From IMG/VR virus record IMGVR_UViG_3300027749_000219, positions 1 to 40,321 of that record: a DNA stretch of 40,321 nt. The stretch is one strand, 5' to 3'. Both the position numbers and the translations under genes were made by a program. This document shows positions 247-25,332 of this stretch, piece by piece (the stretch's first letter is position 1; every line of letters starts with the position of its first letter). Source of the stretch: a virus. The notes below the pieces were generated by a model. It saw only the letters and a program-made list of their open reading frames with translations. It did not search any database and was not told where the DNA came from.

Positions 247-275
247 TTGACACAACGACCTTTATCATGTATACT
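247..275 (+). promoter_or_regulatory. Near-consensus sigma70 promoter
   Basis: TTGACA (247-252) is followed after exactly 17 bp by TATACT (270-275). The -35 is perfect and the -10 differs from TATAAT at one base. It sits in the only gap of the left end and points into the early operon starting at 325. This is the best host-type promoter I can see in the window. Confidence 0.8.
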
Positions 276-931: not shown

Positions 932-1801
932 ATGAAACATAAATCACTCTCATCATCTGCCATGCTTCTTGACATGAATATCTCTGTGTACACAGGGCGC
1001 AAGCAAGACAAGGTCACGGCTGAAGAAGTCAACACCGCAAAGAACACACGCAACAAGGGCGCGGCATCGGTGTACAAGTCGCTGTTCGTAGGTGACGCTG
1101 ACCTTGAAGCAATCAACTCTCACGCTGGCAAGGTGCGTGCATGGTTGTACTCAGTCACATTGCCATGGAATGATGGCGGCACAAGGCTTGTACCTACCAA
1201 AGCGTTCTTTGATGTATCACATGAACTGTCCGAGAACGAGAAGGAATTCAATCGCTTGGTCGATCAGTTCGTGGCCAACTATGCAGTGAAGATTTCTGCG
1301 CAGGCATTCAAGCTGGGCAAGCTGTTTGATGCGGTCGAGTACCCCACGGTAGGCGAGATCACGCACAAGTTTGCACTGCGCTACAACTTTACGCCTGTGC
1401 CAGAGGCGGGCGACTTCCGTGTAGACATACCTGCCCAAGCCATACAGCAGTTGAAGGACAAGTTCGAGCAAGCCACAAAGACCCGCATCCAAGAGGCCAT
1501 GCAGGAACCGTGGAACCGCCTGTACGAAGAGGTCAAGCACATCAAAGACAAGATGGCACCACGTGAGGACGGCACCACGCAGAAGCTGTACGCATCCATG
1601 CTGGAGAATGCCCTTGGCCTGTGCGATACGTTGGAATCATTGAACGTGCTGGATGACCCTGACTTGGAAGCGGCACGCCGCGCCTTGCAGTTGTCATTGG
1701 AAGACGTGGACATTAAATCCCTGCGTCAGTCACCCGAACTTCGTCAGTCGCTCATCGTCAAGATGGATGACTTGTCGGAAAAATTTAAACTGGAGATATA
1801 A
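932..1801 (+). CDS. DUF3150-like protein
   Basis: This 289-residue protein has an alpha-helical, charged C-terminal half (about residues 170-289). By its sequence style and above all its position directly before a MoxR/CobS-type ATPase and a VWA protein, it matches the phage DUF3150 family, whose function is unknown. ATG 932 was preferred over an upstream GTG at 758: the upstream region is covered by the 57-residue gene at 718-891, and an ACGGAAC site lies just before 932. Its stop is directly followed by the ATG of the next gene. It is probably a partner or adaptor of the ATPase; this is inferred from gene order only. Confidence 0.7.
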   Translation: MKHKSLSSSAMLLDMNISVYTGRKQDKVTAEEVNTAKNTRNKGAASVYKSLFVGDADLEAINSHAGKVRAWLYSVTLPWNDGGTRLVPTKAFFDVSHELSENEKEFNRLVDQFVANYAVKISAQAFKLGKLFDAVEYPTVGEITHKFALRYNFTPVPEAGDFRVDIPAQAIQQLKDKFEQATKTRIQEAMQEPWNRLYEEVKHIKDKMAPREDGTTQKLYASMLENALGLCDTLESLNVLDDPDLEAARRALQLSLEDVDIKSLRQSPELRQSLIVKMDDLSEKFKLEI

Positions 1802-2002
1802 ATGGACCTCGACCAAAAAATGAAACGTACCGCTGCGGAAATCATTGCGGTGCTAAACAAAAGCGAACTATCCATAGGGGAAGGTCTAGCTACGCTGGCC
1901 ATGACCTTAGTAGTTGCTTCACGTGTAAAAGGCTTGACCGATGCCGACATACAGCAAAAGGTAGCTAACACCATCGACAGCATGAACGCAACCAAACAAT
2001 AA
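1802..2002 (+). CDS. Small helical protein between the DUF3150-like and MoxR genes (66 aa)
   Basis: ATG 1802 abuts the preceding TAA (TAAATG), which suggests translational coupling. The product appears all-helical, with a central hydrophobic segment (EGLATLAMTLVVASRVKGL) and an amphipathic C-terminus. There is no known family or catalytic motif. Being inside the DUF3150-MoxR-VWA run, it may be a small component of that system. Confidence 0.65.
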   Translation: MDLDQKMKRTAAEIIAVLNKSELSIGEGLATLAMTLVVASRVKGLTDADIQQKVANTIDSMNATKQ

Positions 2003-2015
2003 CCGAAAGCAAACT

Positions 2016-3071
2016 ATGCAAACATCTTTGAACTACAACGAAACCGTTGATCTGATTGCCGCCATCGGCACAGAAGTTACAACCATCGTCGAGGGCCACA
2101 TCGGGTCTGGTAAGTCTTCGCTTATCCATGCGCTTGGCAAGCGGTTCCCCGGCCACCGTGAGATTTACATGGACATGACGGTCATGCACGAGGGTGACTT
2201 CCGTGTGCCCGCCGTTGACCACGCGACCAAGACCAGCGAGTTCTATCCGAACGAATCGCTTGGACTGCACAGCGATGTGCCTGTGATCCTGATGTTGGAT
2301 GAGATGGGCAAGGCCCACAAGAACGTGAAGGATGCATCCCTGCCCCTGTTGGTAGAGCGTAGGCTTGGCAATCGGTTCCTGCACCTTGACAGCATCGTGT
2401 TTGCCACGACTAACCATGGCGGCGAGAACGTAGGGGATACCCTGCAAGCGCACCACCGCAACCGCCTGACTACTGTGCGTATGGGCAAGCCCACTGCGGT
2501 TGATTGGATACGTGACTTTGCACGGGTGAATGGCATTGCACCAGAGGTCATCATGTGGGTCGAAGAGCGGCCAGAGGCGTTGGAGTCCTACGAAGAGTAC
2601 GACCGCCCCGATGACAACCCGTTCATCTTTCACCCCAAGGCGCAGCGCAGTGCGTTCGTTACGCACCGTTCATTGGAGCAAGCATCTAAGATCGTAAACA
2701 AGCGCCACATGTACACGCCCAATGCGTTGGAAGTTGCTTTGATTGGTACGATCGGTGCCCCTGCTGCGCTGGATATGCAGTCATGGATTGCCATGGGTGA
2801 CTCGTTGCCCAAGCGTGCAGAGATCATCAACGACCCTGACAACGCACGCCTGCCCTCACAGGTAGCGGGCAAGCTGATGCTTACCTACCAAGCGTTGAAC
2901 TGGGTGACCGAAGATACGCTCGACCCGTGGATGACTTACATGGCGCGTATGCACAAGGAAGTGCAAGCGTTGTTCTGCACCACGATCGTCAAGAAGACCA
3001 GCAAGCACTTCGTGTTCGAGAACGACAAGTTCACCACGTTCGCTACTGACAACCAATACATGTTTGCGTGA
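2016..3071 (+). CDS. MoxR/CobS-type AAA+ ATPase
   Basis: The protein has 351 residues. Walker A is GHIGSGKS at residues 27-34, with Lys33 as phosphate-binding residue. Walker B is VILMLDE at residues 90-96, with Asp95 and Glu96. A following FATTNHGG resembles sensor 1 of MoxR-type ATPases. In phages such proteins are often annotated as cobalamin biosynthesis CobS, but no cobalamin pathway is present here. MoxR ATPases work with VWA proteins to remodel or assemble protein complexes, and a VWA gene follows with its ribosome binding site overlapping this stop codon. The substrate is unknown. Confidence 0.88.
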   Translation: MQTSLNYNETVDLIAAIGTEVTTIVEGHIGSGKSSLIHALGKRFPGHREIYMDMTVMHEGDFRVPAVDHATKTSEFYPNESLGLHSDVPVILMLDEMGKAHKNVKDASLPLLVERRLGNRFLHLDSIVFATTNHGGENVGDTLQAHHRNRLTTVRMGKPTAVDWIRDFARVNGIAPEVIMWVEERPEALESYEEYDRPDDNPFIFHPKAQRSAFVTHRSLEQASKIVNKRHMYTPNALEVALIGTIGAPAALDMQSWIAMGDSLPKRAEIINDPDNARLPSQVAGKLMLTYQALNWVTEDTLDPWMTYMARMHKEVQALFCTTIVKKTSKHFVFENDKFTTFATDNQYMFA

Positions 3072-3078
3072 GGACTAT

Positions 3079-4227
3079 ATGAAAATGTCACAAGCACAGC
3101 GCGTAGAACGCGCACACGTTTCACTGATCCGCGACAGCGAGTACATGTGGCTGGCGGGCATCATCGTCATGGGCGAAAACAAAGTCGTCAACGACCCAAG
3201 CATCACTGCCCGCACCGATGGTGTTAACGCTGAGTATGGTGAGCAGTTCATCGCAGGGCTGACCGATGCCGAACTGATGGGCTTGGTATTGCACGAGAAG
3301 ATGCACTGCGCCTTCAAGCACTTGTCCACGTGGCGTGGGCTGTACAACGATGATCCTGAGTTGGCCAACGTGGCGTGTGATTACGTCATCAACCTGCCGA
3401 TCCACGACCGATACAAGAAAGATCAATTCGTCAAACTGCCTGACGGCGGGTGCGTTGATGAGAAGTACCGTGGCATGGACGCAGGCGAAGTGTTCCGTTC
3501 GCTCAAGCAAGATGGCCAGAGTGGCAAGCGCCCGAAAGGTTTTGACCAGCACGACTGGGATGGCGCTGACCAGATGACAGCAACCGAAGTGGATGAGCTA
3601 TCCAAAACCATCGACCAAGCACTGCGCCAAGGCAACATCTTGGCAAGCAAGGCAGGGGCCAACGTGGACCGTGACATCTTGGAAATGCTCAAGCCCAAGG
3701 TTGACTGGCGTACCGCCCTGCGGGAGTTCGTGACCAACTGCAAGCCGGGGGATGACTACTCTTCGTACCGCCGTGTGGATCGCCGCATGATGAGCCAAGA
3801 CATGATGACGCCTACGTCTTACACCGACTCGCTGTTCCGCATAGTGCTGGCTGTCGATACTTCTGGCTCCATCGGGGGCAAGGAACTGGCAGCTTTTCTT
3901 TCTGAAGTTCAGGGAATTTGCCAAACTGTTTGTCCTGAATTTGTGGAATTGCTTTATTGGGGGCACAATGTAGCTGCACACGAAACATATCAATCAAATT
4001 CGATCGACTCGATCAGTCAAAGCACCAAGCCTGTGGGCGGTGGTGGTACGGCTCCGAGTTGCGTTACGGCGTATCTGCGCGATGAACACATCGTGCCGGA
4101 CTGTATTGTCGTATTGACTGACGGGGATGTCTTCGGTGACTGGGGCGGTGAGTGGCCTGCACCTACGCTCTGGTGTATGAACAATGACTATAACGTAGCT
4201 CCTACGGGGGTGACGGTACACATGTAA
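3079..4227 (+). CDS. HEXXH metallopeptidase-like/VWA domain protein (CobT-like)
   Basis: ATG 3079 was chosen over a TTG at 3064 because GTGAGGA at 3068-3074 is correctly spaced for it. The protein has 382 residues. The N-terminal part carries HEKMH (His72, Glu73, His76), a zinc-peptidase-like motif seen in the DUF2201 family. The C-terminal VWA domain carries the MIDAS motif DTSGS (Asp260, Ser262, Ser264) and a later TDGD (from Thr347). The partner is almost certainly the AAA+ ATPase just upstream. Whether HEXXH is catalytic cannot be told. Codon usage changes visibly around 3890-4020, near the MIDAS motif. Confidence 0.88.
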   Translation: MKMSQAQRVERAHVSLIRDSEYMWLAGIIVMGENKVVNDPSITARTDGVNAEYGEQFIAGLTDAELMGLVLHEKMHCAFKHLSTWRGLYNDDPELANVACDYVINLPIHDRYKKDQFVKLPDGGCVDEKYRGMDAGEVFRSLKQDGQSGKRPKGFDQHDWDGADQMTATEVDELSKTIDQALRQGNILASKAGANVDRDILEMLKPKVDWRTALREFVTNCKPGDDYSSYRRVDRRMMSQDMMTPTSYTDSLFRIVLAVDTSGSIGGKELAAFLSEVQGICQTVCPEFVELLYWGHNVAAHETYQSNSIDSISQSTKPVGGGGTAPSCVTAYLRDEHIVPDCIVVLTDGDVFGDWGGEWPAPTLWCMNNDYNVAPTGVTVHM

Positions 4228-4470
4228 ATGGACAAATCAAAAGAACTTAGTTACAGAGTGGTAAAAACACCAGAGGGTAAGTGGGAGGTTGGTGTCTACC
4301 ATAACGAATGGCATAAATACGAAGCCGTATACACAGATGAAGCACTGCCGGAATGGATACGCAAAGACATTGCGTTGTTGAACTTGGTGGATAACCAATC
4401 AAACATTCAGTCCATCGGGCACCGTGTGGGTCCAGTGTATTGGCTACAACCAAAGGAACGGAAACTATGA
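4228..4470 (+). CDS. Small hypothetical protein (80 aa)
   Basis: ATG 4228 follows the preceding TAA without a gap. The sequence is mixed alpha/beta with several aromatic residues (KWEVGVYHNEWHKYEAVY, VGPVYWLQP). No known motif is seen. Its TGA overlaps the next start as ATGA. It may belong functionally to the AAA+/VWA run, but nothing in the sequence proves that. Confidence 0.65.
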   Translation: MDKSKELSYRVVKTPEGKWEVGVYHNEWHKYEAVYTDEALPEWIRKDIALLNLVDNQSNIQSIGHRVGPVYWLQPKERKL

Positions 4471-17870: not shown

Positions 17871-17903
17871 ACCCCCGGCTAACCCCGGGGGTTTTTTATT
17901 TTT
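17871..17903 (+). terminator. Rho-independent terminator between the convergent blocks
   Basis: ACCCCCGG (17871-17878) pairs with CCGGGGGT (17885-17892) around a six-base loop, an eight-pair GC-rich stem, followed by TTTTTTATTTTT on the + strand. It ends early-strand transcription. On the - strand the same hairpin follows the stop codon of the giant gene (17896) but has no uridine run, so termination of late transcripts there would be less efficient. Confidence 0.9.
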
Positions 17904-20900
17904 CGTCCGCCAAACTCTTGCGAAGTTCACGGACATACCGCAAGGATTCGTTTTCTGCAATGCGCAGTTCGTCAATTGCTGCACGGCGCTCTGCGCCATC
18001 CATACCCAACATCTCCTCGGTCCCTTGCTCATACAAAGCCCGCATCCGACGCAGATTACTCAGGGTCTCCAGCGAGTTGTTAATCATCGGTGCAGCGCTG
18101 ATGAGCGCGGCGTTTGCTTCCAAGAACTTTCCAGCCTTTTCAGGGTCTGTCTTTTGCAAGTGTTTAAACGTGTCATCCGCTTGGCCAACTTTTTCTTGCA
18201 GTTGGTAAAACTCGTTTTTAGCGCGGCCACCAATGGTGTCGTACAGAAACAAGCTACCGAATGGCATCTGGTACATAGGCCGATCGGGCCGTGTTGGATT
18301 CAGCACAGCGTCGGTAGCCAGCAGGGTAGTTGCCCCAGCCATACCAAATGTGCCGCGCAAGAAGTTGTCGATCTTGATCGGGGAAACGTTGATGTTTTCC
18401 CCCACAGCTTTGGCCAACTCCGATGTGCTGGACGTGGACCGCTGGCCCGGCTCCAGTCTTTGCATAGACGCAGATTCCAACTCCCGTTGCAAGAAGAATG
18501 AGTAGTTGGTCATGTTCTCCAGTATCGGCTTGATTAACGATGGCGTTACGTTTGGCGAACCATACGCAGACAGAGCACCCTTAAACGTACTGCCCAGCGC
18601 CTCCATAATAGTCTGCTCTTCGTCCGTGCCATGGCGCAAGTAGTAGCCAACAATCCGTTCGGGGATAGACTTGAACATGAACCCAAGTTCTTTTGGCAAA
18701 GAAATCTTGTAGCCGTTTGGCAGCAGCCAATTGTTATCCCGCACGTCATCCGTTGCGTTTTTGTAGCCCTCATCATCGCTCATCGACAGTGCGTACACAA
18801 AGCCCAGTGCAGTCATCATGGCCACACGACTTAGGAACATCTTGCGGGCAGCGTTGCGGTTCATTGCAGAAGATGCATCCAGTCCCGTAGCTGATCTATA
18901 CAGCACATCCATGCCCTGCGCGTAGGCATTAAAGAATGGAATGACCCGCGCAGCAGTGCGCATTGCCGAGCTTGATCCACGGCGGCTGAAGTTAATCAGT
19001 TCACGTGCGCGGGTTTGAGCCAGCAGTTCATCTCCGTTGGTATCCCGCATGGTCTCTTCGTACACAGCCAAACGTGCAGCCAGATCGGATGCTTTGGTAA
19101 ACTGCTCAAGGCGGTGGAATAACTTCTCACCTGCCCCGCGTTTGGTCAGCCCAAGTTCCTTTTCAATTTCATTGACGGGTTCAAAAATGTTGAAGTCGTA
19201 GTCACCGATGATACCCAGTGCTTCCATGCGGCGGACCATGGGCGATTTGCGGCCAGTTAGTTCGCCAAAGAATACACGTGGCATGTTGTACAGAGTCTTC
19301 ATTGCCACAACCAAAGGCCGCTTAACTCCCGAGTAGAACGCTGCACGCTGCGCGTCTTCCACCACCTGCTTGATGGCGAAAGGCGGCATTGCAGTGATCG
19401 ACAAGCGCAAGAAGCGGGACGTAGCGCCCAAGGCTGTAGTCAAGCCGTTGATGACTTCAGGCGCTTGCTGGAAGGCCAGCATGTCGTATTCGTTCTGCAC
19501 TTCAAAGAACACGGGCTTACCGTCACGGTACAGGCTTACCACCAACCCTTTGTTCTTTGCTGAATCCTTGGTTGCCACTTCGTTGGCAAAGCCTGCCATC
19601 TCCATGGTCTCCAGCACTTTGACCGCAGCATGGTTCTTCATGGTGTCTTCCACCATGCCACTCAAGCGGTTTGCATAACTGTCAATCACGTTCTTGATCG
19701 GACGGCCAAGGGAACCCTTCATGCCGGGGATGTTGGTCAGCACGCCCAAGCCTTTGCCACGGAATATTTTGGCGGGGCCAGTATCTTCAAAGATACGGTT
19801 GAACGGAACATACGCTTCGTTATCTTTCCAGTATTGACCCTTCTCTTTTTCGATGCGGCCTGTAGCAACCATCAGGTCAATGACTTGCGACTTCGTAGCG
19901 TTCAGGTCGCTCAAGATACCTTTGATACCAGCAGACTTTTGGAAGATAGCTTCAAGCTGAGCGATCTGCTGCAAATTCATGTGCATGTCGATCTTCTTAG
20001 CGCGTTCAGCGTCAGCTTCTTTGATCTTGCCTTGCTGTTCCAACAGCAGCGCCGATGCTTCAAGCGGTTTGTTGTGGTCGTTGTAAATGCTGTGCAGGCG
20101 GTGGCCTTCCAATACGGTAGACACTTCGTTCTTGGCCTCTTCGACAGTCATGTCGTTGGCCTTGGCAAACTCACCCAGCTTCTGCAAAGCTGACGCCATA
20201 GACGCAGAGTTTTTTGTCGTTTCAATCAGCCCATCTTTGGACAACCGAATACCACCCGTGCGGAAGAAGTCCATCACAATCTTCGTGCTGTCTTCAGCTT
20301 GGCGCACCAGCACCATAGGGTTCAGGTTACCGAAGTAATCCCGCACACCCTGAGAAAACAGTTGTGATACCTTGGCTTCCACCGTTGCATGCTTGTCGGC
20401 TACAGCCTGACGGAAAGCGTTGATGATGCCAGTCTTTTCCCGCGCAGTGTTAATGCCTTTGACCGCTGCACCCAACACCCCACCAACACCTTCCTGCTCT
20501 TCAGGCGGGAACATACTCTGAATGTCTTTGATGGATTGCCGTGCAGCAGGGTCAAGCTCTTTGACCAAAACATTGGCAATGCCGGGCAGTGCGCCTTCCA
20601 CCTGCGTTCCGGTCATTGACTCTTGAAGACTGCGGCCTTCTGCCATAACGCTGTCTACCGAGATCATGGCAACAGCCAGCGCAGAATGTTTATCAGTGGT
20701 AGCCAGACCCAAAGCTCGCAACACAGCTTGTGCAAACCCAGTAAGCGCGTTGACACGGCGATACGGAATTTTTTTCAACGCATTTTGGAAGTTTTTGTTG
20801 GACATAACTTCCGAAGCAAATTCGCTCAAGTCCTGCATGCCATATTCTTTGGCAAGTTCAGGGTGGTTCTTGGCTACATAGTCAAACAACTCCCGCAAAG

Positions 20901-23900
20901 TGCGAATACCACCGTTGTTAATCTTGCCGCCTTCGTGCATAGCAATCGCACGGTGGACAAACCCGTGGACCAATTCGTGCAGCAAGGTATGGACACCCAC
21001 ATAGCCATCAGTAAGTTGTACAGTATCTGTCACAGCGTTGTACTGTCCGCCAACCATTTTGCCGTCTTGCATGCCCAGAACGCCCGGAGCCACTATCTGT
21101 ACGGTTGGCAGTTTGTTGGAAAGCAAGATGCGCCGCGCCACAGCACGGTCAAGTTCCGTGTACGTACCCTCGGGCGCTTTCAAGATAGCTTGCAGGGCAC
21201 CCTTCACATCTCCTTCGGCGACCTTGGCTTGCAGGTCAGCTTCAGCAGAGGTAGTGCGCTCCGCTACATTTAAATCTGCCGCAGGTTTTTGCAGGCGTTC
21301 AGTCGGAATTTCTTTTTCTTCCTTTTTGGCCACGTCCCGCACAGCTTCGCCCTTGGCTTTTTCTGTAGGTGCTTTCTGTTCTACCGTCTTGGTTTCTGGC
21401 TTGAACATTTCCCCGGTATTTTCTTTGGCATCCGGCAACACAAAGACCAAGCCATCATTGAACTCGTCTGCTTTTGGCATAAGTTTGTTTAAAAACAGAT
21501 CGTGGGTCGTATTGATGCAACCGTAGCTGATCCGGTTGTCCTCTGCGGAGGCTGACTTTAAGCGTTCAGCGCGGTTTTCTTTGGCATCCCCAAACCATGC
21601 GGCATGGATAGCAATTATTCCGTCACCCATACTTGTTTCCACCAAGCTGAACCTATGCCCGCCAGCGTAATCGGTGTCTGTTTCGTACTGCATGGTGAAG
21701 GTGCCCGCAGGGGTAACTTTTGCCCCTCCTTCTAACGAAGACACCTTACCCAACACATCGGCCTTTTCTTTACCGTACAGGGCGGGCTCTTGGGCTAGGA
21801 CACTGCCGTCAGCATTGAAGACGTGCAGCATACCGTTGGGCTTATCGGCAATGATGAACCCCTTGCCTGTCTTTGCTGCCACTGGAGCCATGGATTCGTA
21901 CACACCTTGCGCAAGCGTAGACATCTTGGCTTTGGCAGCATCGGGTACTTGGGCCTTGACTTCTATCGTTGTGCGGAAAGCCTTGGGTACGTTGATGCTG
22001 TAGTCATTGTTCAGTCCCGATGCAGGGTTGAACACCATACCAACGGCCAGCACACCAGCTTGAATCTGGCGGATCAGTTCACGGATTGCTTTGGCAACAG
22101 ACTTTGCGCCTTTGTTGGCGTAGTTGGTTACGTCTTCACGCAAACGGTTCCAAAATTCTGCGGAGTCTTTCTTTGCACCATAGAACTCTTCAAGTTCTGC
22201 AACTTGGTCATCCTGCAAACGATCGACTGGGCCTTCCAACATTTCACGTTGGGGTTCTGGTACAGTTTCAGGCGCAGCTTTGGTTTCAGGCGCAGCTTTG
22301 GTTTCAGGCGCAGCTTTGGTTTCAGGCGCAGCTTTGGTTTCAGGTGCTTTATTCTGCTGGCGTTCGTACTCATCCAGCGCAAAGCGAATCTCATCCAGCA
22401 TGTCCTCTGGACCCATGTCCTTGTCTTTGGAGTAGCTTTCAACTGCGTTCAGCCCAACGTCATCAAGGATACCCGCTTTGTGCAACCGTTTGGCAAACGC
22501 TTTGACTTTGGCTTTGGTAGTCTCTGGGTCAAGGTTTAAATCTTCAGCCGCATCCCGCGCTTTGTCTACCGCCTTGCTAGGCTTAGCAGTTTCCTTCTCG
22601 GTCTCTACTGTTTCAGCAGGAGCAGCAGGAGCTTGTTTTTCCACCTTCGCGGTAGTGGTAGTCGGTACAGGTTTCGATACAATCTTTGCGGGCTTCGCAG
22701 GAGCCACGGCAGGGGCAGTAGTATCAATAGTAGGCTCAGTAGCAGGAGCTTCATTGGCTTTCTTTGCTGCGCGTTCGGCTTTATCTTGTGTATCGAGCTC
22801 TGCTTTTTTCTGCACGATTTGTTCGCCAAGCACATCCCATTTTGCACGGGCTTTGGAATTGACCGCGGGTACCCGTCCCGCTTTGGTCAACAATGCTTGT
22901 TGCTGGTCTGTTAGCGCACGTACTTCGTTGTGAATCACATCGGCAGTGCGCTCAGCAGACTGGCCTGCGTTTATTACTGGAGCGGGCTGCGTTCCTTCAG
23001 ATACATTTCCCTGAGTAGCAGGTTGCTCAGTAGGAACCAATCCGCGTCCGACAGGTGCTGTAGATTCTCCGGTGGTGGCGGGTGCTCCGGCTCCGGGTTC
23101 AGCGACGAGGGGGGCTGAAGACTCGACAGGTACTGCCACGCTTGGCTTACTTGCTCGGGGCTCAGATCGGGGCTTGGGTTGATTCTGCGGGGCAGGGGGC
23201 GTGACATCGGGGATTCCTTGGAATTCTGGTCGGGCAAGATAGGCATCAACTTTCTCCGCAATGGGGGCACTCAGGCCGGGCTTGCCACGGTACACCGTCA
23301 GCATCTGTTTGACTTGCGCGGCGTCTTCTGGCTTGGCAATATCTAAGCCTTGGATAGCATGGTCAGCCTTGCGCAACACAGCGGAATGGCCAATGCCAAG
23401 CACACCCAAGACTTCTGGCGTCACTATAGTTGGTACAGTTTCCGGTGTAAGTTTTGCGCGGACGGTAGGCTCGGTAACTGGTAGCTCTTGTGGTTGGCTG
23501 GTTGTTTGCGATTCTGCTGATGGCGTGCCCACTCGCGTAAACAGACCTGTCTGACCAGCTTCACGTGCGGCTTTGCGCTCGGCTTGTGCAGCCCGAACTT
23601 CAGCGTTGCGTTGGGTTTGCAGTGCAGCTTCAGCTTCCTCACGGGTCTGCACAGTTTTTATCTTCGGCTCCGCTGGCGCGGGAGCTTCTGGCATCTGCGT
23701 GACAGGCTGGCCAAGCAAGTTCGTTTGCTGCACTGGAGGCTGAGCCACCGTGGCTTCACGCATCTCCATTTGTTGTGGCGCGTTAGAAGTAAACGCAGCG
23801 GCGGCGTACTTGGCTTGCAGGTCAGTTGGCAGTTGCTTGACGATTGCAGCGTTCTCTTTCTGCATCCGCTGGAATTCCATCGGCACACGGGTATCTTCTT

Positions 23901-25332
23901 CAATGATGCCTTTCATCAAGCCATCAATGGTGGCAAGGCGGGCACGGACTTCTGCGGTCTTGCGCTGGCCTTCAAGCGATGCCTTTTCCTGATAAAGTTC
24001 TGCGTAGGAATTGGTACGCGCCATTACGTCGCTGTAGTCAGCAGGGAACGCGGCTTTCAGATCGGCTTCACGTTGCGCACGGGCTGCGACCAATTGTTCT
24101 GCCGCGGCTTTCTCGGCTTCGGCTCGTGCAACTTGTTCTTGCTGCGCTTGGGCTTTGGCCTCTTCGTCAATCATCTTCTCGCCTGCACGAGCATCGCGCC
24201 CTTGCTGCACGCTCATTTGCTCTTGGGCCAGCGCCTGACGCTTGGCTTGCATGTCGGCTTCCAACGCAGACGGACCGCCAGCAGGTTGACCGGGTACTTG
24301 TACAGGTTCCGCGCCGCGCATACCGGAGATCGCCCCTGCACCGCCGCCCATACCCACACCACCAACGGCTGCTTGGCCAGCAGTAGCGCCAACACCCTGC
24401 ATCAAGGATTGGGTCGGATCAACCTCACGCATGGCCAAGTTCTGGGTAAACTTGCCACCACCTTCTTCCACGGCCTCACTTACACCTTCGCCCAACGCAC
24501 CTTTACCCGCGCCGATCAGCATGCCGCTGACACCTTTACCGCCAGCCAAGGCTTCTTCCAATGCTTTTGCACCGGGCAAACGCTGGGCCAGCAACGAGAT
24601 AACCGCGCCAGATACGCCTGCTGCACGGGCAAGGTTGATGGCAATGCCAGCAGCTTCGGCGTCAGATTTACCACCGCGAACAAGTTTCTTGTATATGTCT
24701 TCGTAGGATTGTGCGCCAACATCCGCGCCCTGCTGTACAGCACCGACACCCACTGCTGCCTGTGTGCCCGCTTTAACCGCAGCAGCCTTGGCCAAATCTT
24801 TTTCAATGCCCGCAGCCAAACCTCTCGAGAGGGCCGCACGGCCAGCTACTCCAGCACCTGCTCCCGGCACAAGCAACTGGGTTAAATTTTCAGCGAGAAA
24901 AGATGTTAGAAGTGCGGGGTCTTTAATGGTTTCGCCAAACGATGTTGCAAATGCAGCTATCTGGCCTTTGTCTTCGGCTTCAGCAACCTTGCGGCTACGC
25001 GCAGCTTCACGGGCTTTGAGGCCCGTGGATTTCATCTCTTCACCGTACTTCTGGATGTCTTCGCCAAGACCTAACGCACCTGTCTTTGCAAAGTCGCCCG
25101 TAGCAAGCCCGTAAAGCTGCCCGGGAAGTTGAATAGTTTGTCCTATGCCCGATATAACTCCGGCTCCTATGTCAGTAGCAGCTTCGCCAAATGTACGTTC
25201 CTTGGAAGGGGGTTGCCCCGCTTCGGGATTTTGGGCCAATACAGCTTGCGCTACTTGCGAAGCACTAGCCCCCGGTGGACCTTCGATCTGATAAGTTTGA
25301 CCGTTGGGGGCTGTTATGCTGTATGTTGTCAT
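17896..25332 (-). CDS. Giant polyvalent virion protein (2478 aa) with YkuD, zincin-like and LPD38-like regions
   Basis: The start is ATG at 25332. Layout: residues 1-35 YSITAPNGQTYQIEGPPGAS, a common N-terminus of phage giant proteins; a Gly/Ala-rich hydrophobic region (about 50-340); a Gln/Ala/Glu coiled-coil region (about 355-430); long Pro/Ala/Thr linkers with an ETKAAP tandem repeat (about 995-1022). An L,D-transpeptidase (YkuD) domain (about 1159-1305) has VTPAGTFTM, IHAAW and SYGCIN with Cys1272. A zincin-like HELVHG (His1452, Glu1453, His1456) precedes LSEFASEVMSN. The C-terminal part (about 1660-2350, for example SITAMPPFAIKQVVEDAQRA) resembles large polyvalent protein domain LPD38. 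Such proteins are probably packaged and ejected with DNA; the YkuD domain may act on peptidoglycan. It is the last gene of the late block here. Confidence 0.88.
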   Translation of the reverse strand: MTTYSITAPNGQTYQIEGPPGASASQVAQAVLAQNPEAGQPPSKERTFGEAATDIGAGVISGIGQTIQLPGQLYGLATGDFAKTGALGLGEDIQKYGEEMKSTGLKAREAARSRKVAEAEDKGQIAAFATSFGETIKDPALLTSFLAENLTQLLVPGAGAGVAGRAALSRGLAAGIEKDLAKAAAVKAGTQAAVGVGAVQQGADVGAQSYEDIYKKLVRGGKSDAEAAGIAINLARAAGVSGAVISLLAQRLPGAKALEEALAGGKGVSGMLIGAGKGALGEGVSEAVEEGGGKFTQNLAMREVDPTQSLMQGVGATAGQAAVGGVGMGGGAGAISGMRGAEPVQVPGQPAGGPSALEADMQAKRQALAQEQMSVQQGRDARAGEKMIDEEAKAQAQQEQVARAEAEKAAAEQLVAARAQREADLKAAFPADYSDVMARTNSYAELYQEKASLEGQRKTAEVRARLATIDGLMKGIIEEDTRVPMEFQRMQKENAAIVKQLPTDLQAKYAAAAFTSNAPQQMEMREATVAQPPVQQTNLLGQPVTQMPEAPAPAEPKIKTVQTREEAEAALQTQRNAEVRAAQAERKAAREAGQTGLFTRVGTPSAESQTTSQPQELPVTEPTVRAKLTPETVPTIVTPEVLGVLGIGHSAVLRKADHAIQGLDIAKPEDAAQVKQMLTVYRGKPGLSAPIAEKVDAYLARPEFQGIPDVTPPAPQNQPKPRSEPRASKPSVAVPVESSAPLVAEPGAGAPATTGESTAPVGRGLVPTEQPATQGNVSEGTQPAPVINAGQSAERTADVIHNEVRALTDQQQALLTKAGRVPAVNSKARAKWDVLGEQIVQKKAELDTQDKAERAAKKANEAPATEPTIDTTAPAVAPAKPAKIVSKPVPTTTTAKVEKQAPAAPAETVETEKETAKPSKAVDKARDAAEDLNLDPETTKAKVKAFAKRLHKAGILDDVGLNAVESYSKDKDMGPEDMLDEIRFALDEYERQQNKAPETKAAPETKAAPETKAAPETKAAPETVPEPQREMLEGPVDRLQDDQVAELEEFYGAKKDSAEFWNRLREDVTNYANKGAKSVAKAIRELIRQIQAGVLAVGMVFNPASGLNNDYSINVPKAFRTTIEVKAQVPDAAKAKMSTLAQGVYESMAPVAAKTGKGFIIADKPNGMLHVFNADGSVLAQEPALYGKEKADVLGKVSSLEGGAKVTPAGTFTMQYETDTDYAGGHRFSLVETSMGDGIIAIHAAWFGDAKENRAERLKSASAEDNRISYGCINTTHDLFLNKLMPKADEFNDGLVFVLPDAKENTGEMFKPETKTVEQKAPTEKAKGEAVRDVAKKEEKEIPTERLQKPAADLNVAERTTSAEADLQAKVAEGDVKGALQAILKAPEGTYTELDRAVARRILLSNKLPTVQIVAPGVLGMQDGKMVGGQYNAVTDTVQLTDGYVGVHTLLHELVHGFVHRAIAMHEGGKINNGGIRTLRELFDYVAKNHPELAKEYGMQDLSEFASEVMSNKNFQNALKKIPYRRVNALTGFAQAVLRALGLATTDKHSALAVAMISVDSVMAEGRSLQESMTGTQVEGALPGIANVLVKELDPAARQSIKDIQSMFPPEEQEGVGGVLGAAVKGINTAREKTGIINAFRQAVADKHATVEAKVSQLFSQGVRDYFGNLNPMVLVRQAEDSTKIVMDFFRTGGIRLSKDGLIETTKNSASMASALQKLGEFAKANDMTVEEAKNEVSTVLEGHRLHSIYNDHNKPLEASALLLEQQGKIKEADAERAKKIDMHMNLQQIAQLEAIFQKSAGIKGILSDLNATKSQVIDLMVATGRIEKEKGQYWKDNEAYVPFNRIFEDTGPAKIFRGKGLGVLTNIPGMKGSLGRPIKNVIDSYANRLSGMVEDTMKNHAAVKVLETMEMAGFANEVATKDSAKNKGLVVSLYRDGKPVFFEVQNEYDMLAFQQAPEVINGLTTALGATSRFLRLSITAMPPFAIKQVVEDAQRAAFYSGVKRPLVVAMKTLYNMPRVFFGELTGRKSPMVRRMEALGIIGDYDFNIFEPVNEIEKELGLTKRGAGEKLFHRLEQFTKASDLAARLAVYEETMRDTNGDELLAQTRARELINFSRRGSSSAMRTAARVIPFFNAYAQGMDVLYRSATGLDASSAMNRNAARKMFLSRVAMMTALGFVYALSMSDDEGYKNATDDVRDNNWLLPNGYKISLPKELGFMFKSIPERIVGYYLRHGTDEEQTIMEALGSTFKGALSAYGSPNVTPSLIKPILENMTNYSFFLQRELESASMQRLEPGQRSTSSTSELAKAVGENINVSPIKIDNFLRGTFGMAGATTLLATDAVLNPTRPDRPMYQMPFGSLFLYDTIGGRAKNEFYQLQEKVGQADDTFKHLQKTDPEKAGKFLEANAALISAAPMINNSLETLSNLRRMRALYEQGTEEMLGMDGAERRAAIDELRIAENESLRYVRELRKSLADEK
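22266..22347 (-). repeat. 18-bp tandem repeat encoding ETKAAP
   Basis: TTTCAGGCGCAGCTTTGG (+ strand sense) occurs four times in perfect tandem at 22266-22337, followed by a partial copy. Read on the - strand it encodes repeated PETKAA in the linker before the YkuD domain. Identity between copies suggests recent slippage expansion, so copy number may vary between relatives. Confidence 0.9.

Follow-up and report, generated by a model that had tools for sequence, protein, structure and literature searches.

The subject of this study is a cassette at positions 932-4227 of a 40,321-base virus fragment (IMG/VR record IMGVR_UViG_3300027749_000219, its source described as a freshwater phage), and "the window" below means this whole fragment. 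We found that the conserved unit of the cassette consists of three genes, encoding a DUF3150-like protein, an AAA+ ATPase and a protein which carries both a HEXXH motif and a von Willebrand factor A (VWA) domain, and not of four genes, as a first-pass annotation of the window had proposed. In our judgement there is an even chance that this triad is a three-protein AAA+-driven remodelling or proteolysis machine, which works in the cytoplasm in early or mid infection with DUF3150 as its third subunit and serves neither capsid assembly nor cobalamin synthesis.

Conservation of the three-gene unit

In the window the cassette is made of four plus-strand open reading frames (ORFs) separated by gaps of 0, 13 and 7 bp, so the tight linkage described in the first-pass annotation is confirmed. 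The DUF3150-like gene comes first (932..1801, 289 aa from the ATG at 932) and is followed by a 66-aa ORF (1802..2002), by the gene of an AAA+ ATPase of the MoxR/AAA_5 type (2016..3071, 351 aa, phrog_1297, a homologue of N4 gp24) and by the gene of a protein with a DUF2201_N metallopeptidase domain and a DUF2201 VWA domain (3079..4227, 382 aa, phrog_1314, a homologue of N4 gp25). The ATG at 3079 was used as the start of the last gene; the ORF list also holds an earlier in-frame TTG at 3064. The suggested survey of co-conservation bore out three of these genes and failed for the 66-aa gene.

In the viral DUF3150 loci that have 4 kb or more of flanking sequence in both directions, all three triad genes lie on one strand (44 of 44), and the triad is linked in all 13 Burkholderiales genome loci. 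We chose 82 non-redundant viral triad loci and scored 79 of them for gene order, with M standing for the ATPase, V for the VWA protein and D for DUF3150. The order was MVD in 53 loci, DMV, which is the order of the window, in 25 and VDM in one, always on a single strand, and MDV is found on plasmids, in the Burkholderiales genome loci and in cyanophage MinM2, where small ORFs stand between the genes. The tree of the VWA protein requires five changes of order, an approximate figure since it is a quick tree with several long branches. As the linkage outlasts this re-ordering, we have an indication that the triad is a functional unit. The three triad genes are also the only near-universal ones across the 82 loci, and the next neighbour family reaches 60 of them.

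The triad operon is present on conjugative plasmids as well, with no virion genes around it. A VWA gene adjoins DUF3150 in 41 of 44 DUF3150 plasmids (in one of the 41 at a distance of about 3 kb, in another across the record start), and the three plasmids without it are those of Manganitrophus. A Burkholderiales island (L237, G463 contig 181) combines the triad with genes for a tyrosine integrase, a primase (Zn_Ribbon_Prim/Toprim), a single-stranded DNA-binding protein (SSB) and DNA_pol3_beta-like and SMC/SbcC-like proteins. The DUF3150 branch was detected in three of 300 Burkholderiales genomes, one of them the seed, and in one of 398 Pseudomonadota genomes, which is the seed itself, and the VWA protein occurs in 80 of the 300 Burkholderiales genomes. 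Next to the chromosomal VWA gene the ATPase gene was found in 18 of 20 sampled Burkholderiales loci, and DUF3150 in none of them. Therefore, the pair is a cellular module and DUF3150 marks its mobile-element version. The chromosomal neighbours (hemL, thiD and thiE in 5/20 loci, a NUDIX gene in 8/20) were considered as a clue to a cellular client and rejected, since no client is constant in the 20 loci. The hemL, thiE and thiD homologues stand beside the pair in five related genomes (L238, L239, L248, L250 and L251).

For the 66-residue protein, taken for a partner in the first-pass annotation, the sole relative comes from a near-identical contig of a different sample (L001; 99.96% identity over 9,499 bp, with all four ORFs intact), and a profile comparison with an 86-aa gene family was negative. 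Its place is occupied in other members by an unrelated-looking ORF of 80-90 aa, by a 170-aa ORF which is HNH-like by eye, or by nothing. The 66-aa ORF was thus rejected as a subunit and excluded from the system. An HNH-like ORF inserted between the DUF3150 and ATPase genes is seen at L013:4429-4938. Directly after the VWA gene of the window there is another small ORF (4228-4470, plus strand), which looks by eye related to the family found near 60 of the 82 triad loci; this family gave no Pfam match, and the ORF is possibly a loosely linked accessory.

Domains and motifs of the three proteins

In the metallopeptidase-VWA protein Pfam recognizes DUF2201_N, a "putative metallopeptidase domain" (PF13203; 6e-19, 69.1 bits against a cut-off of 23.2), and the "VWA-like" DUF2201 (PF09967; 2.5e-12, 47.4 bits against 26.4). 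The HEXXH motif reads HEKMH (residues 72-76, positions 3292..3306) and the metal ion-dependent adhesion site (MIDAS) contains DTSGS (residues 260-264, 3856..3870) and is complete, with D260, S262 and S264 joined by T324 (4048-4050) and D348 (4120-4122). Both motifs are thus intact, as the first reading of the sequence had it, and they are kept almost without exception: H72 and E73 in 114 of 115 non-redundant relatives, H76, D101, D260, S262, S264 and D348 in all 115, and the MIDAS residues overall in 114-115. In the AlphaFold2 model (mean predicted local distance difference test score, pLDDT, 86; predicted template modelling score, pTM, 0.58) the HEXXH motif falls on predicted helix 63-78 and the invariant D101 (3379..3381) on the next long helix (93-115), so that D101 is likely the third metal ligand. 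The VWA domain is clear in the model at residues 251-382 (Z 12.4 and root-mean-square deviation 2.6 over 130 residues against CLCA1).

Relatives of this protein were found in 496 phage records and in at least 591 IMG/VR stretches. Phage members mostly bear the labels "HNH endonuclease", "ATPase" or "hypothetical", so the statement that phage versions are usually annotated as cobalamin genes did not hold; the CobS/CobT labels belong to a related class (PMC8651126). We also rejected the label "HNH endonuclease" (PHROG 1314, RefSeq), because Pfam gives DUF2201_N and DUF2201 alone for N4 gp25 (L023:3165-4304) and found no HNH domain in it or in the other phage members scanned. On these domain assignments, the naming of DUF2201 metallopeptidase-VWA proteins as HNH endonucleases is a propagated misannotation.

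The ATPase matches phrog_1297 at 1.7e-41 and its own match to AAA_5 is weak (0.017, Pfam); by sequence it is a distant AAA_5/MoxR-type protein. Its Walker A motif is GHIGSGKS (residues 27-34, 2094..2117), and the Walker A K33, the Walker B D95, the sensor-1 N133 and R150, the Arg finger, are invariant in all 94-95 ATPases scored. Profile detection found ATPase relatives in N4, PA5oct, phage G, Thermus phage phiFa, Presley and slur16, and no convincing solved-structure relatives were obtained by sequence for the ATPase or the VWA protein. In PA5oct the ATPase and VWA genes are separated by a gene labelled "putative homing endonuclease" (L019:6428-7924), whose product has a Vsr/MTES_1575-like domain.

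The similarity of the first triad protein to Pfam DUF3150 (PF11348) is 8e-5 at 22.5 bits, just below the cut-off of 24.9, which is exceeded by relatives from seven of 17 contigs. Comparison of the canonical pCAR1 DUF3150 with the profile of the window-protein family gave an hhalign E of 1.4e-5 (prob 80). Alignments that took in every one of the 12-17 divergent members had too much diversity to serve as queries for scans of the collections. The predicted structure of the window protein (AlphaFold2; pLDDT 87.9, pTM 0.79) begins with a short beta part at the N terminus, continues in long helices and ends in a helical bundle, and it agrees with the model of a viral DUF3150 (TM 0.82). The search for this fold in the PDB was uninformative, with helical-bundle matches only (best Z 9.9 over 119 C-terminal residues), and in the literature searched, which lacks many journals, we found no paper with DUF3150 as its subject.

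Against relatives of 60-81% identity the dN/dS of the DUF3150, ATPase and VWA genes is roughly 0.1-0.2, with dS saturated in some pairs. These estimates clearly indicate purifying selection on the three large genes.

A putative remodelling or proteolysis machine and its alternatives

The machine proposed above is based on the domains, on intact motifs under purifying selection, on strict linkage through changes of order and on the presence on plasmids without virion context. We infer from these that the three proteins form a complex with protease activity, which acts on a client early or midway in the infection by the window phage. In the NorQD mechanism the VWA protein inserts a finger into the pore of the ring and is remodelled by it (PMC13036017, PMC9976466). 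By analogy with NorQ and NorD, the ATPase may form a MoxR-type ring, dock on the VWA subunit and remodel it, and the VWA/MIDAS domain would bind a partner or a substrate. The HEXXH domain fused to it would be active as a zinc-metallopeptidase, cleaving or processing the protein that is presented, and, since the remodelled protein itself carries the metallopeptidase, the use of ATP would gate or aim the cleavage. DUF3150 could be an adaptor, a substrate or an inhibitor: a third subunit that would fit the machine to mobile elements and select the client. The target would be cytoplasmic and perhaps belong to DNA metabolism; on plasmids it may be a protein of the host or of the element with a link to DNA metabolism.

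Several points weigh against such a machine. The fold lists were filled by the VWA domain and covered residues 220-382, and the metallopeptidase fold is putative. Our sample of viral DUF3150 loci was drawn from the best 80 of at least 498 matches and is therefore biased to close relatives. We found no interaction, ATPase or protease results for any family member in the literature searched. Six phages (N4, PA5oct, phage G, phiFa, Presley and slur16) have no DUF3150, thus the pair works without it there. The member on plasmid 2 of Variovorax sp. SRS16 (L038:6938-8221) has AT..H in place of HEXXH and has kept the second His, D101, the MIDAS and the operon; by its sequence it is a natural non-peptidase variant, and proteolysis may thus not be essential. 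Finally, the record of the PA5oct ATPase bears an "ESI-MS/MS" note, and this protein may be virion-associated.

The loss of HE in the Variovorax protein, together with the known mechanism of NorQD (PMC13036017), would suit a maturation chaperone of the NorQD type, which inserts the metal into a metalloenzyme that it remodels, such as ribonucleotide reductase or a replication protein, with HEXXH binding metal without cutting. However, the conservation of HEXXH in 114/115 and of D101 in 115/115 relatives goes beyond the needs of a mere scaffold, and no dedicated client gene was found near the triad loci, where the next neighbour family stops at 60/82. We therefore regard such a chaperone as improbable.

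The PA5oct note would fit an assembly and processing chaperone of the virion, in which case structural proteins would be folded or cleaved by the pair. This was proposed for group 2.2 jumbo phages by analogy with the MoxR/VWA pair of Acidianus two-tailed virus, in the passages of PMC7824862 that concern the pair, and roseophage structural genes do lie near gp24/25 homologues (PMC4193335). The layout of the window speaks against it. Its plus strand carries replication genes (polymerase, helicase, primase; window annotation) up to 17.6 kb, and the genes for structure and lysis lie on the minus strand from about 17.9 kb, with those of tail fibres, an endolysin, a holin and a protein of 2,478 aa; the cassette is located near the left end of the plus arm, away from the structural genes on the opposite strand. 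In addition, the N4 gp24/gp25 pair belongs to the middle genes (PMC4193335), the operon stands on conjugative plasmids and in a replication-gene island without surrounding virion genes, and a chromosomal pair exists in Burkholderiales. Thus virion assembly is unlikely, because of the plasmid operons, the distance from structural genes and the middle expression in N4.

A sigma70-like promoter match, TTGACA-17-TATACT (247..275, plus strand, 11/12 of the consensus), lies upstream of ORF 325-708, ORF 718-891 and the cassette. The region shows no excess of promoter-like sites (five found, 7.7 expected), and for this reason a position of the cassette directly behind an early promoter would be no more than plausible. 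Among the minus-strand genes, the 2,478-aa protein (17896-25332) has an LPD38 (large polyvalent protein) domain and an N-terminal part weakly similar to N4 virion RNA polymerase and to DarB-like antirestriction families, and it is probably an injected virion protein. No RNA families or tRNAs were detected in the window.

One would argue that closeness to early or replication genes points to counter-defence or host take-over, with the machine directed at one specific host protein which stops phage or plasmid DNA on entry and which it would destroy or disarm. Phages, plasmids and an island with an integrase do share the triad, which is rare in the sampled genomes. However, no defence target was found: PADLOC gave mad8 alone, an unconvincing local P-loop match (13.2 bits, E 0.012). 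That the ATPase-VWA pair is common on chromosomes suggests that the core has a function in the cell itself, and deletions of s067, s068 and s070 in SXT, which we infer to be genes of the related pCAR1 class, lowered transfer at most 10-fold (PMC2791158). We consider counter-defence doubtful, the least so of these alternatives.

Cobaltochelatase activity, in which a CobST pair would use the host CobN for cobalamin, has been put forward for viruses of archaea and bacteria that have CobST-like pairs (PMC8651126). On the nine carrier phages and plasmids we found no CobN, and the controls were positive, in a search which concerns the elements themselves, and Pfam gives the window protein DUF2201 domains and not CobT. 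The first-pass view that the context does not support a cobalamin role is thus well founded: this role is very improbable because CobN is missing and the HEXXH domain is present.

The wider DUF3150 class and the known systems

DUF3150 is not confined to the DUF2201 class. In plasmid pCAR1 (L210:18203-22341) an AAA ATPase (AAA_5 and CbbQ_C) is followed by a canonical DUF3150 (8e-92) and by a 604-aa "NorD" VWA protein, which contains an N-terminal HECSH and DKSGS, so a metallopeptidase-like motif occurs in the pCAR1 class too. These AAA-DUF3150-NorD genes were reported to be conserved in SXT, R391, Rts1 and R478 (PMC2642839). In Tunturiibacter phage Tunturi_3 (L025) and a Manganitrophus plasmid (L258, CP114562) DUF3150 stands near a Ycf46-like AAA ATPase, and the two ATPases are homologous (E 1e-32); no VWA gene was seen near DUF3150 in CP114562 and no DUF2201-VWA in the Tunturi_3 record. 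CP114562 also has DUF1257 and DUF2997, and its DUF3150 gene looks split into two ORFs. DUF3150 may therefore be a partner of several AAA+ motors. It could even be, and we put this forward as a tentative extension below even odds, that the AAA+ machines of mobile elements include an undescribed family in which DUF3150 stays constant and the motor and VWA/protease parts are exchangeable, a shared remodelling or proteolysis system acting against or upon the host DNA machinery. Its branches would be MoxR with the DUF2201 metallopeptidase-VWA protein (freshwater phages, cyanophages, Burkholderiales plasmids), MoxR/CbbQ with a NorD-like HEXXH-VWA protein (the pCAR1 class) and a classical Ycf46-like AAA without VWA (the Tunturiibacter phage and Manganitrophus plasmids).

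The homologues of N4 gp24/gp25 belong to the core gene set of a well-studied phage family and still lack an assigned function. With a third constant partner and an operon on plasmids, an intracellular machine that remodels or cuts proteins takes the place of virion assembly as the leading hypothesis, and its target can be sought in tractable systems, the triad on plasmids and the pair in N4.

N4 gp24/gp25, core genes of Schitoviridae, are a homologous adjacent pair of a phrog_1297 ATPase and a phrog_1314 DUF2201_N-DUF2201 protein in the early/middle region (PMC4193335); N4 differs in having no DUF3150, and identity to the window proteins is 20-30%. The group 2.2 jumbo phage pair (Iyer et al., 2021) likewise joins a MoxR ATPase to a VWA protein with an N-terminal metallopeptidase domain, but it was proposed to serve virion assembly, and the relevant passages of that report (PMC7824862) mention neither DUF3150 nor plasmids. 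The pCAR1 (IncP-7) operon shares the MoxR-type ATPase, DUF3150 and a VWA protein with N-terminal HEXXH; its VWA protein is of another class, with no DUF2201 match and a long acidic linker, and the DUF3150 similarity is weak. NorQ/NorD, RavA/ViaA and CobS/CobT have, by family, the same AAA+ ring with a VWA/MIDAS partner, but their clients are known (NO reductase, fumarate reductase and CobN), and neither a DUF2201 metallopeptidase nor DUF3150 is described for them in the literature searched. In the same literature we found no report of DUF3150 as a constant partner of the pair or of a plasmid/phage triad. Therefore, of the novelty suggested at first one part stands: the ATPase/metallopeptidase-VWA pair is already known from N4 and from the jumbo phages, as far as the passages cited describe them, and the partnership with DUF3150 is the new part.

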